Part shown: one piece after another, positions 13,816-18,796 of the stretch
How positions within the stretch are numbered: position 1 is the first letter of the stretch
Layout of the letters: the number at the start of each line of letters is the position of its first letter
The notes under the pieces: generated by a model
What the model saw: only the letters and a program-made list of their open reading frames with translations
What the model was told of the DNA's origin: nothing
Databases searched by the model: none
Program-made: the position numbers and the translations under genes
IMG/VR virus record: IMGVR_UViG_3300025102_000356
Location: 1-21,051 of that record
From: a virus
Length of the DNA stretch: 21,051 nt
Direction: 5' to 3' (one strand)

Positions 13816-16800
13816 ATGCCAGAAATTAAACGACTCTTTAACGCGAGCAAAATGAATCGCGATTTAGATGATAGATTAGTACCGGCCGGTGAATATCGAG
13901 AAGCTTTAAATATAAACGTAAGTAAATCAGAAGGTTCAGATATGGGCGCTGTTGAAAACTTATTAGGAAATAAACTTATAAACACTACTCTTGTAAATAA
14001 TGCCACTGTAATTGGATCTTATAAAGACACAGGTACTGAAAAAATTTATTATTACATTACATCAAATGATTCTTTTGATGAAAGCAATACTGGGTCACAC
14101 CAAATTATAGAATATGATCAAAAAGCTGAAAAAAGCACTATATTAGTTAACTGTGCTGCCTTAAATTTTCATAAAAATTATCCTATAACTGGTATAAATA
14201 TAGTTGATACTTTATTATTTTGGACAGATAATAGAAATCCGCCTAGAAAAGTAAATGTACAAACAGCTTTAAATGAGCCTGGATACTATAATATAACTGA
14301 TGTTGATGATTTAATATCTGTAGCTAAATATAATCCATTTGAAGCTCCTGAAATACTATCTGTGGGTGCAAATGATGAAGCTGGAAACCCAATTACATCT
14401 AACTTTTTAGAAAATAAATTAGTTAGATTTTCATATAGATGGCAATATGAAGATGGAGAATATAGTACATTAGCTCCATTTACACCTATATGTTTTTCAA
14501 GACTGGGTAATATTGATACTATATCTTCTTCAATAAGTGATTTTGGAGAAATTGAAACTTTTGTAAATGCAATAAAATCTGTGCAATTATCTATTCCTAC
14601 ACCGTCGGGTTTTGGTATAGTAAATGCAGAATTAATATATAAAGAAACAGGATCTAGTACATTATATGTGGTTGAAGATAAATCTATAACAACAGAAACT
14701 AGTGTTAACTTTTTTTATAAGTCACAGGATCCATTTAAAACATTACCGCCAGATCAACTAACTAGGGTTTACGATGCAGTTCCTAGAATTGCAAAATCTC
14801 AGGAGCTTGCGGGCGGAAGACTTATATATGGTAACTTTTTACAAAATTATAATATACCTGATATAGATTTTACTGTAACTAGAACAGGAGAAGATTCAGC
14901 AAGATATACACAAATAGACAGTTTGTCTGTTAAATCAAGAAGAACATATCAAGTTGGTGTTGTATTAGCGGATAAATATGGAAGACAATCTCCCGTTATA
15001 CTATCAAATTCTGGAGGTGATACTGTTTTTGTTGATGCAGGAACAGGCGAAGCGGACTCAACAACAGCTTTTAATGCTTTGCGTATAGCATTTTCTCAAG
15101 CTACCATAGATACATTACAAAACTTAGGGTGGGCTTATTCTTATAGAATTGTTGTAAAACAAAGAGAGCAAGAGTATTATAATTGGATTTCAATTGTTAA
15201 TTCTCAAGATACTGTTGCAAGACTAGGTGATAGTATTAATAAAATACCAAGAGATCAAACTGCTGTTATACCCCCTAGTACATCTTCTACAATATCGCCT
15301 ACAAATATTTCTGTATTTCCAAAAGTTCTTTCTGGTTCAAATCAAACAACTACAACATTAACTAAAGTAAGATCTATATCAAATCCTACAGGAGATGCAA
15401 CAGTTTCAACAGGATCAGCTACATCTGGGTTAGCGGTTTTTGAAACAAAACCAGTAGAGTCAGATTTAGATATATTTTTTGAAACATCAACGGGTGGGGA
15501 AATTTCTCAATTAACAACAACTGCTATTGATATAGAATTTTTTAATTGTTATTTGTTAACTTTTCAATCGGGTACACATATTGAAACAAATAGATTAAGA
15601 GCTGGATTTAACGAAACAGCTTTTGATGTAGGGGTTAGAGCTTTTGTTGTTCAAGAAAATTTTGCAGAAGAAAGAAGATTTAATACTTTAATACACTCTA
15701 GTGGTCTTTTTAATTCAAGAACAAATGTAAATTATATAAATCAATTTAATGAATCTGAGGGGGGATTAACAATATCTTTAGATCCTCATGATGGATCTGT
15801 ACAAAAGCTATTTGCTGATGATACTCAAATAGTTATTTTTCAAGAAGATAAGGTTTCAAGATCACCTATAGATAAAAACTTTATATATGCCGCAGAGGGA
15901 GGAGCTATTCCTGTTACTAGTAATACACAATTTTTAGGAACAATAGCCCCATACGCAGGTGAATTTGGTATTTCTAGCAATCCTGAATCTTTTTCAACAT
16001 TTGGTTTTGTTAAATATTTTACAGATAAAAACAGAGGAAGCGTTTTAAGATTAGCACAAAACGGTATTACAGAAATATCAAATTTTGGAATGAGTGATTT
16101 TTTTAGAGATTCTTTAAAAGGTGCAACTAAAATTATAGGTTCTTACGACGAGTATCATGGTTTGTACAATTTAACTATCACAGGGGAATCATATTCAAGC
16201 AATATTGATACTAATGTAGCTACGTCTAATGATAATTATTTTACAATATCTTTTGATGAAAATGCTAAGGGCTGGACAAGTTTTAAATCTTTTCAAAAAG
16301 AATCAGGAATAAGTTTAAATAATACTTATTATACTTTTTATCAAGGTAAATTATGGCAACATAATTCTGAAGATGTTAATAGAAATAATTTTTATAATTT
16401 AGGAACTCAAGAATCTTATATAGAAACTATATTTAATGATGCTCCTTCTTTGGTTAAACAATTTAATACTATTGGCTACGAAGGAACAGAGGGTTGGAAT
16501 GTAAATTTTATTGATACTGACATATCTAGCGCTGGTGTTTTACCAACAACAACACAAGCTTTTAATACAATATTAAGACTTCAAGGTGTTTCAAACAATA
16601 GTATATTATCAGGAGAAAGATCGATAAATGCTATTGCAGGATCTTTAATTAAATGGATTATATTTGTTGAACCTAAAAGCTCAGACTATAAATTTAATAG
16701 TATTAATGATGTCACTCTTTCTGGAAACAATAATTTAACTGTAACTAATCCATCTGCTATAGTTAATAATAAACTTGCTTTTTTAGTTGAATATACTGTT

Positions 16801-18114
16801 GGTACTTCTGATTCTATACAAAATCTTAATGTAGGCGGCACAGGTGCTTCGTTAGCATTTACAGTAGCATTATTAACAATTAATACAGGTGATTCTGTTA
16901 GTAATGCAAGTGTTAGCCCCGCTGTTCAAACTTTTACTACAGCCGGTTTAAACACAGCATCTTTTACTATAGACGCGGAAGATGGCTACTATATTGAAGA
17001 AGGAGATATATCTATAAACACATCAGGATTATCTACATTAAATAATAGTAGTATATCAGGGTCTGTAAATAAAACTATAAAAGTTGTAAATTATACAGAA
17101 GGGAATAGATATACCGTGGATGATATAAAACAAAATATAATAACTTTTACAGTTGGTAAAACTTATATATTTGATCAATCTGATTCAAGTAATTCTGGTC
17201 ACCCTATAAGATTTAGTACTACAAATAATGGAACTCACGGAGGTGGTTCTGAATATACAACAGGTGTTACTTATACAGGAACTCCAGGTCAAGCAGGGGC
17301 CAATACATCGATAGTAATAACAAGTACAACACCAAATCTTTATTACTACTGTAGTAATCATAGTTTAATGGGGGGTTCTACTAATATATTGCTTTTTGAG
17401 CATTCTAGGTCGTTTGACAATGTTCAATTTTCTATTCCAATAACCGTGCCTTCAAATCCTACAAATAATACAATAGGGGTGAGTGGGCCGGCTAAAGCTA
17501 AGTATGATGTAACCTGGACGGCTCCTAACGTAGGAACTTTAACGCCTCCTGCGGGAGTTACCACGGGAGTTGTTTTTAAAACTTTTCCGTATGATTCTCC
17601 AGCTACTAGACAGGCTAATATAAGGATTACAGCAAGTGCTACTACTAAAGTTCTTTTAGAGGACGCTTATGATCTATCTATGAACGTTTCAGGATTTACT
17701 TCAAGTAAAACATTATCTAGTTTGCAAGATACTTTAGATATTTCAATACAAATTTTGCCTGTATATCAATCCAATTTAATACAATCAACATTAGCTGGTA
17801 ACGGAGAAGTTGATGCTGCCTTAGGAGTATATCCATCAGCTCATACTTTTACTACAACCTCAGCTGTTAATTTGATTATTGGAGATGTAATAACAGAGCA
17901 AGCAAATGTAGATATATTGGTTACGCCTAGTGATTCATGGATATTAATAAATGGAAGTACAGGTGCACAACCAATAAATAAATTAGGACAATTTACAATT
18001 GGGGCATCTGATAATGGAACTGGCTCACAAAGAACAGGCACTGTTGTTATAAGTAATAACAACGGGAGAGTAACTGGCATTTCTAATTCAACTATTAATA
18101 TAACACAATCATGA
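13816..18114 (+). CDS. P22 gp10-like tail protein with added surface domains, 1432 aa
   Basis: The N-terminus (MPEIKRLFNASKMNRDLDDR, then LVPAGEYREALNINVSKSEG) and the body to about residue 900 look like the tail stabilisation / tail hub proteins of P22-type and crAss-like podoviruses: repeated beta blades with DTLLFWTDNRNPPRKV, an AGGRLIYGNFLQN segment and SIGxxD-type turns. Such proteins cap the connector and carry the fibres. Downstream parts look like attached modules: Ig-like beta segments (about 970-1095), a cupredoxin-like module (1096-1195; His1129, Cys1179, His1182, Met1185), another beta segment (1200-1360) and a BACON-like domain (1365-1432). Near 17480-17570 the DNA is richer in G and C than around it, a sign of module exchange. 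The stop overlaps the next start (ATGA). The core call is confident; module functions are inferred. Confidence 0.75.
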   Translation: MPEIKRLFNASKMNRDLDDRLVPAGEYREALNINVSKSEGSDMGAVENLLGNKLINTTLVNNATVIGSYKDTGTEKIYYYITSNDSFDESNTGSHQIIEYDQKAEKSTILVNCAALNFHKNYPITGINIVDTLLFWTDNRNPPRKVNVQTALNEPGYYNITDVDDLISVAKYNPFEAPEILSVGANDEAGNPITSNFLENKLVRFSYRWQYEDGEYSTLAPFTPICFSRLGNIDTISSSISDFGEIETFVNAIKSVQLSIPTPSGFGIVNAELIYKETGSSTLYVVEDKSITTETSVNFFYKSQDPFKTLPPDQLTRVYDAVPRIAKSQELAGGRLIYGNFLQNYNIPDIDFTVTRTGEDSARYTQIDSLSVKSRRTYQVGVVLADKYGRQSPVILSNSGGDTVFVDAGTGEADSTTAFNALRIAFSQATIDTLQNLGWAYSYRIVVKQREQEYYNWISIVNSQDTVARLGDSINKIPRDQTAVIPPSTSSTISPTNISVFPKVLSGSNQTTTTLTKVRSISNPTGDATVSTGSATSGLAVFETKPVESDLDIFFETSTGGEISQLTTTAIDIEFFNCYLLTFQSGTHIETNRLRAGFNETAFDVGVRAFVVQENFAEERRFNTLIHSSGLFNSRTNVNYINQFNESEGGLTISLDPHDGSVQKLFADDTQIVIFQEDKVSRSPIDKNFIYAAEGGAIPVTSNTQFLGTIAPYAGEFGISSNPESFSTFGFVKYFTDKNRGSVLRLAQNGITEISNFGMSDFFRDSLKGATKIIGSYDEYHGLYNLTITGESYSSNIDTNVATSNDNYFTISFDENAKGWTSFKSFQKESGISLNNTYYTFYQGKLWQHNSEDVNRNNFYNLGTQESYIETIFNDAPSLVKQFNTIGYEGTEGWNVNFIDTDISSAGVLPTTTQAFNTILRLQGVSNNSILSGERSINAIAGSLIKWIIFVEPKSSDYKFNSINDVTLSGNNNLTVTNPSAIVNNKLAFLVEYTVGTSDSIQNLNVGGTGASLAFTVALLTINTGDSVSNASVSPAVQTFTTAGLNTASFTIDAEDGYYIEEGDISINTSGLSTLNNSSISGSVNKTIKVVNYTEGNRYTVDDIKQNIITFTVGKTYIFDQSDSSNSGHPIRFSTTNNGTHGGGSEYTTGVTYTGTPGQAGANTSIVITSTTPNLYYYCSNHSLMGGSTNILLFEHSRSFDNVQFSIPITVPSNPTNNTIGVSGPAKAKYDVTWTAPNVGTLTPPAGVTTGVVFKTFPYDSPATRQANIRITASATTKVLLEDAYDLSMNVSGFTSSKTLSSLQDTLDISIQILPVYQSNLIQSTLAGNGEVDAALGVYPSAHTFTTTSAVNLIIGDVITEQANVDILVTPSDSWILINGSTGAQPINKLGQFTIGASDNGTGSQRTGTVVISNNNGRVTGISNSTINITQS

Positions 18115-18355: not shown

Positions 18356-18796
18356 ATGCAATTACAAGTAAGAAAATTACAAGAATCCGATTGGGATTTA
18401 ATACCAAAGTGGTGGGAAGCTTATGACTCTGAAGGTTTCCCACGTGACTTTTTACCCGGTGCATTTCAACTAGGTGATAAACAAGAAGAAAAAAGACAGG
18501 GCTTAGGTGGCTTTATGGTGTGCAAAGGAGATGATCCTATTGCAGCTATGTGGCTATGGATGACAAATAGTAAGATGGCAATTCCAGCTGTTGTAGTGAG
18601 TGATAAATCTTATCGTGACACTGACAGAAGTGATGCATTGCAACTCTTAGTAGATTTTACAACTGATTTTGCTGAAGACTTAGGTTATAAATATGCATTC
18701 GCATGGGCAAAACCGGGTAGATTATTAGAAAAATATAAAAAAGCGGAGTATTATTGCGATGAAACTCCGTCTTACGAATTAATACTAAAATACTAA
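18356..18796 (+). CDS. GNAT-fold protein in the position of T7 gp13
   Basis: The 146-residue protein has the strand-helix order of a GCN5-type acetyltransferase: LQVRKLQESDWDLIPKWWEA, a strand GGFMVCKGDDPIAAMWLWM, the central strand AIPAVVVSDKSYR, a long helix (DALQLLVDFTTDFAEDLGY) and a final part with AFAWAKPGRLLEKYKKAEYY. The usual acetyl-CoA loop (Q/R-x-x-G-x-G/A) after the central strand is replaced by SYRDTDRSDA, so enzymatic activity is doubtful. A protein of this size and fold also precedes the internal virion proteins in T7-like phages (gp13, about 138 residues), where it affects virion assembly. The same role is a fair inference here. It shares a TAATG stop-start with the next gene. 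Confidence 0.65.
   Translation: MQLQVRKLQESDWDLIPKWWEAYDSEGFPRDFLPGAFQLGDKQEEKRQGLGGFMVCKGDDPIAAMWLWMTNSKMAIPAVVVSDKSYRDTDRSDALQLLVDFTTDFAEDLGYKYAFAWAKPGRLLEKYKKAEYYCDETPSYELILKY

Follow-up and report, generated by a model that had tools for sequence, protein, structure and literature searches.

Can a phage tail carry a genuine blue-copper domain, and what would such a domain do there? Cells use cupredoxins to carry electrons and as domains of oxidases, and one metabolic gene of phages is known to encode such a protein. The question arises from 21,051 nucleotides of viral DNA (the window, by which we mean the whole stretch analyzed), in which an earlier note read a cupredoxin-like segment with a full set of possible copper ligands inside a large tail protein. 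We found no report of a cupredoxin in a phage tail in the literature searched, a body from which most subscription journals and bioRxiv fall outside. We put at about 0.75 the probability of the explanation developed here, in which residues ~1086 to 1195 of a 1432-amino-acid (aa) protein form a true cupredoxin with a complete type-1 site; that the domain also serves the tail as a copper-dependent contact module is a more tentative part of it.

RESULTS

The module lies in a muzzle-like tail-tip protein

The gene for the 1432-aa protein is preceded by genes for a terminase, a portal, a coat protein, and two more virion proteins, and the order portal, coat, ring-like, muzzle, a feature of crassvirus-type muzzles, is present in the window. 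The nearest annotated phages are Cellulophaga phage phi38:1 and its relatives (Pervagoviridae), and the phi38:1 homolog of the 1432-aa protein is gp97, a virion structural protein. Relatives of the coat protein belong without exception to Bacteroidetes phages or to uncultured ones, which makes a marine bacterium from the Bacteroidetes the probable host. Downstream of its match to the crassvirus muzzle family, the 1432-aa protein continues for ~530 aa in Ig-like domains, and a model of residues 906 to 1432 (pLDDT 89.6) places beta-sandwich domains like beads on either side of the module. The features of the gene are collected in Table 1.

Elsewhere in the window, positions 3 to 1829 encode a DUF7483 protein with a repeated domain, which is probably fiber-like. 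A holin-like 3TM protein (1829 to 2242; below the Pfam cut-off) and an M15 peptidase (2395 to 2739) are a likely lysis pair. The small virion-block protein at 18356 to 18796 belongs to phrog_17252 and has no Pfam match; its sequence reads as GNAT acetyltransferase-like.

Table 1. Features of the tail-tip gene and its predicted copper site (positions in the window)
Feature	Positions	Strand	Evidence or remark
1432-aa virion protein bearing the cupredoxin module; muzzle/nozzle-like protein at the tail tip of a phi38:1-like phage	13816..18114	+	
N-terminal part, residues 4-351	13825..14868	+	PHROG phrog_14478, virion structural protein, E 3e-120
PF25729 crAss_MUZ_C, residues 855-899	16378..16512	+	Pfam 29.6 bits, cut-off 27
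Ig-like domain, first half, interrupted by the module, approx. residues 1040-1080	16933..17055	+	
Cupredoxin module, residues ~1086-1195	17071..17400	+	within a loop of the Ig-like domain
His1129 codon	17200..17202	+	predicted first type-1 copper ligand
His1141 codon	17236..17238	+	conserved, not a ligand
Cys1179 codon	17350..17352	+	predicted ligand
His1182 codon	17359..17361	+	predicted ligand
Met1185 codon	17368..17370	+	predicted axial ligand; Leu in 2 copies
Ig-like domain, second half, approx. residues 1196-1228	17401..17499	+	
BACON-like domain at the C terminus, residues 1370-1431	17923..18108	+	Foldseek 3zmr, prob 1.0; below Pfam cut-off

Limits and predicted fold of the module

The earlier note had placed the module at residues 1096 to 1195. 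Nucleotides 17101 to 17400 encode exactly these residues, and the strings and residue numbers that it quoted are all right. The end of the module stands, and the true start lies ~10 residues earlier, near residue 1086. The note's reading as a plastocyanin-type sandwich agrees with a confident cupredoxin-type AF2 model, built from an alignment of 53 copies (pLDDT 88.8, pTM 0.80), whose top PDB matches are blue-copper proteins; in the 527-residue context model, the module region has a pLDDT of ~90 to 97. The predicted fold agrees with the Greek-key beta-sandwich of about eight strands by which cupredoxins are recognized. Foldseek ranks rusticyanin first among PDB entries; other leading matches are CotA laccase and, with TMq 0.59 and rmsd 3.4, the cupredoxin domain within the nitrite reductase of Hyphomicrobium. 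The E-values are modest (best, 1.4e-3). In the model, His1129 sits directly before a strand, Cys1179 ends the penultimate strand, and His1182 and Met1185 lie in the loop that follows it, an arrangement along the chain like that of type-1 copper sites. Three “beta-sandwich proteins” of giant viruses (LCMAC201, LCPAC302, and LCPAC304; BFVD entries A0A481YVH3, A0A481Z6J5, and A0A481Z7Q7) also match the module model, with E-values of ~2e-6 to 3e-6.

Relatives connect the module to blue-copper proteins

The window copy has no match in Pfam, PF00127 included. Searches of the PDB with a single sequence or with profile A1 return weak or immunoglobulin matches, among them Ig light and heavy chains, with pseudoazurin at an E-value of 1 for A1. 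The connection emerges through relatives. A copy from Woeseiaceae (L310), which was found as a family member and whose domain shares 44% identity with the window module (E 1e-22), scores 25.2 bits against PF00127, above the curated cut-off of 21.2, and covers profile positions 16 to 97 of 99. A second relative, L416, also exceeds this cut-off (28.1 bits), and weak PF00127 matches occur in 7 of 53 phage copies. Profile A5, built from 17 diverse family members, matches in the PDB both plastocyanin (E 5.8e-6) and amicyanin (5.9e-4) as well as pseudoazurin, nitrite reductase, and rusticyanin, in all more than 60 distinct sequences that are nearly all blue-copper proteins. Its alignments set the C-x2-H...M motif on that of plastocyanin and, in 1b3i and 1kdi, His on His. 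Because some members of A5, namely L416, were chosen through PF00127, the A5 result is partly circular; the L310 test is not. Comparison with host pseudoazurins by hhalign gave a probability of 25.9% with A1 and 85% with A5.

The four predicted ligands are conserved together

The type-1 set proposed in the earlier note, His1129, Cys1179, His1182, and Met1185 with a C-x2-H-x2-M loop, is intact in the window copy, and 358 of 372 distinct copies or fragments read H-C-H-M. Two more read H-C-H-L; what is left consists of fragments, of copies that insertions have split, and of copies lacking the site. Patterns that contain C, H, and M cannot test those ligands, so the 372 copies include samples fetched with ligand-free patterns. 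In the first such sample, 73 of 76 copies were complete, two were cut off in the alignment, and one had lost the site; in the second, every complete copy kept it. Far from varying freely, Cys1179, His1182, and His1129 are among the most conserved columns of the 372 copies. Among copies at 26 to 85% identity, nothing is invariant except the four ligands, the Pro that follows the first His, and a Tyr located two residues ahead of the Cys.

Complete copies without the ligands have mostly lost His, Cys, and His together. These positions are N, S, and Q in L214 (residues 179 to 255 of its open reading frame [ORF]) and D, A, and T in PSS2 (L405, PSS2 gp080), and one site-less copy each occurs in Syn33 (L404, Syn33_035) and S-H9-2. 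Decayed copies in S-CAM4 and P-SSM4 may retain part of the site, and the rule of joint loss is thus strong and not absolute. With the fold kept and the ligand set lost, L214, L405, and L404 are natural copper-free controls.

His1141 is common in the family, yet some copies with all four ligands intact have W, F, N, or a deletion at this position; it is therefore not a fifth ligand. An internal disulfide is likewise ruled out, Cys1179 being the sole Cys of the module. CxxHxxM occurs once among the virion-block proteins scanned, in the module. The 1432-aa protein contains 4 Cys and 6 Met, and the pattern H-x30-70-CxxHxxM arose in 1 of 20,000 shuffles.

The module was inserted once into an Ig-like domain

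That the module is an insertion amid Ig-like segments, as the earlier note had supposed, is borne out by comparison of 61 distinct whole-protein homologs, 27 with the module and 34 without. The segment corresponding to residues 1076 to 1202 measures 122 to 137 aa in the former and 15 to 24 aa in the latter, and the flanks on both sides align as one Ig-like domain, leaving a clean insert of ~110 aa within a loop. A single change accounts for presence and absence on a tree of residues 1 to 900 (support 100), and repeated gain among these homologs is accordingly rejected; the module is confined to one clade whose sister group is without it. With near-copies excluded, the module is 54 to 72% identical to that of the window, compared with 32 to 46% for the flanking Ig-like domain. 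Either, therefore, constraint on the module exceeds that on the surrounding domain, or the module is renewed by exchange.

Distribution in phages and cells

The likeness to segments of other marine phage virion proteins, which the earlier note proposed, is confirmed: tblastn at a loose E-value limit of 1 matched 369 phage records, and in 228 of them a single place covers 80% or more of the query. Nearly all of these records bear marine-type names (Synechococcus, Prochlorococcus, Pelagibacter, Methylophilales, marine virus). The PHROG families matched are tail fiber, baseplate wedge, wedge-fiber connector, and virion structural proteins. A pattern search of IMG/VR, with a pattern that itself contains C, H, and M, yielded more than 580 relatives. 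Some proteins hold two or three copies, in tandem or otherwise repeated (L066, L033, L011, L015, L054, and L059). Very distant copies with intact ligands are found in tail spike, fiber, and baseplate proteins of cyanophages (L402, PSSM2_298; L403, PHM2_106; L401, gp9-like and PSSM4_082). A family of short phage ORFs of 220 to 285 aa (L008, L028, L240, and L242; SDRSGFRYKL..EWNG..) has the module at the C terminus. A search of plasmids found no copy.

The domain also occurs in marine bacteria and archaea, as found with a pattern containing C, H, and M: SAR86, Marine Group II, OM182, Woeseiaceae, and Porticoccaceae. The cellular carriers begin with a lipobox or signal peptide in chromosomal neighborhoods that look cellular, and other copies, such as Pelagibacteraceae L278, resemble prophage tail genes; gene functions were judged in both cases by reading the sequences. 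In one group of lipoprotein-like or signal-peptide proteins (L249, L298, L276, L265, L254, L266, and L315), from SAR86, OM182-like and other Gammaproteobacteria, and Marine Group II archaea, the domain lies at or near the C terminus, and L315 has two copies followed by a C-terminal hydrophobic anchor. These lipoprotein-like carriers have no Pfam name, except PF00127 for some relatives.

DISCUSSION

Copper binding and its possible role

Taken together, the fold, homology, ligand conservation, insertion, and spread of the module make copper binding likely, and we consider it very probable that the predicted type-1 site can bind the metal. The earlier note had allowed for a tail that senses or holds copper; as a prediction, holding is well supported, and sensing is not. 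The almost unchanged presence of the four ligands in hundreds of ocean viruses suggests copper-bearing tails in many phages of the ocean.

In the mechanism that we propose, the tail would be assembled in the copper-poor host cytosol with its site empty, so the site would be filled during lysis or from seawater. Bound copper would stabilize the domain, which may be an exposed part of the tail that makes contact with the host surface. Its work would be copper-dependent adhesion, rather than electron transport or sensing, and it may be attracted by lipoproteins on the host surface that handle copper or contain a cupredoxin. We hold host contact as the main role tentatively, as the leading candidate at odds somewhat below even. 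Host contact with copper-dependent stability ranks first, followed by stability alone, a Trojan horse, and a redox function; these roles overlap, and our estimates for them need not sum to one.

The candidate placed second, which we regard as possible, is a structural or adhesive beta-sandwich derived from host blue-copper proteins, for which copper would matter for stability only and have no part in infection. The setting of the module among Ig-like domains fits this reading, as do the whole-site losses in L214, PSS2, Syn33, and S-H9-2, whose retained folds indicate that the sandwich can do without copper. Near-absolute conservation of the ligands in hundreds of copies, together with a module more conserved than the neighboring Ig domains, argues against it.

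It is unlikely that the copper-loaded tail acts as a Trojan horse, or a copper ligand, recognized by hosts that take up or handle copper in the manner of the Ferrojan Horse proposed for iron. The nearly uniform marine-type names of the matched phage records, the precedent of iron-binding HxH motifs in marine phage tails (PMC11705849), and the same module in marine microbial lipoproteins would accord with this role, but a scan of all His positions in the 1432-aa protein found no His-x-His pair.

A redox device, either an electron carrier or a copper or redox trigger of muzzle opening, appears improbable. Electron carriage is the normal job of cupredoxins, rusticyanin is the first Foldseek match, and the ligand set is redox competent, but no redox partner domain is seen in the 1432-aa gene, and what would supply an oligomeric tail with electrons is not obvious. 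An Ig-like or other non-copper sandwich with HCHM by accident, to which the missing Pfam match of the window copy alone and the weak Ig-chain matches might point, is the least credible explanation and is contradicted by the rarity of the motif in shuffled sequences, the breadth of the blue-copper profile matches, and the mostly joint loss of the ligands.

Comparison with known systems

The module shares with the plastocyanin/azurin family (PF00127) a beta-sandwich, the ligand order His...Cys-x2-His-x(n)-Met, and a Y-x-C before the loop. It differs in being a domain of a virion protein rather than a free periplasmic carrier, in carrying an additional glycine-rich segment (GTHGGGSEYTTGVT..) downstream of the first His, and in the residue next to that His, which is Pro in 343 of 358 HCHM copies instead of the usual Asn of classic blue-copper proteins. 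This Pro predicts an unusual redox potential and would mark the family as a variant. Rusticyanin, an electron carrier of acidophiles, is likewise without Asn after the first His ligand; its N-terminal part and its C-to-M loop are longer than those of the module. The C-x2-H-x2-M loop (CSNHSLM in the window) is two residues shorter than that of plastocyanin and the same as that of amicyanin. We do not class the module as an amicyanin, since no gene for the partner, methylamine dehydrogenase, is present among the window genes scanned.

Phage tails appear to hold a large, unannotated family, a variant of known cupredoxins, whose relatives number hundreds in ocean phages that infect Bacteroidetes, cyanobacteria, SAR11, and methylotrophs. 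Its recognition would explain part of many “hypothetical” or “tail fiber” proteins. We are more doubtful of the wider proposal that this family, with its HP-type second shell and amicyanin-type loop, makes many marine tails copper-binding and puts copper to use in host recognition. On that proposal the module, shared by phages with surface lipoproteins of their marine hosts, may be where the tail meets the host surface.

Marine phages are known to encode one blue-copper protein, the plastocyanin PetE of cyanophages, an auxiliary metabolic gene (PMC3037559, PMC2984593). PetE is a separate small gene that serves host photosynthesis, whereas the module is built as a domain into tail and baseplate proteins and occurs also in phages of nonphototrophs. 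Lying within a 1432-aa virion protein, it is not a free, small, exported protein of the PetE type. The muzzle of PhicrAss001 is a hexameric tail tip that is thought to contact the cell surface, and the length of its protein, gp44, varies through insertions (PMC10172136). The 1432-aa protein has in common with gp44 the crAss_MUZ_C domain, the tail-tip position, and variation in length driven by insertions; in contrast to it, gp44 is described, in the passages cited, with Ig-like and crass domains and no cupredoxin (PMC10172136). A further parallel involves another metal: tail fibers with iron-binding HxH motifs, as in T4 gp37 and alterophage R22Y, likewise place a metal-binding motif, predicted in our case, in a phage tail (PMC11705849). 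Metal, fold, and ligands all differ from those of the module, and with a ligand-complete cupredoxin in virion tails, copper would join iron, whose role is itself a proposal, among the factors that bear on infection by marine phages.
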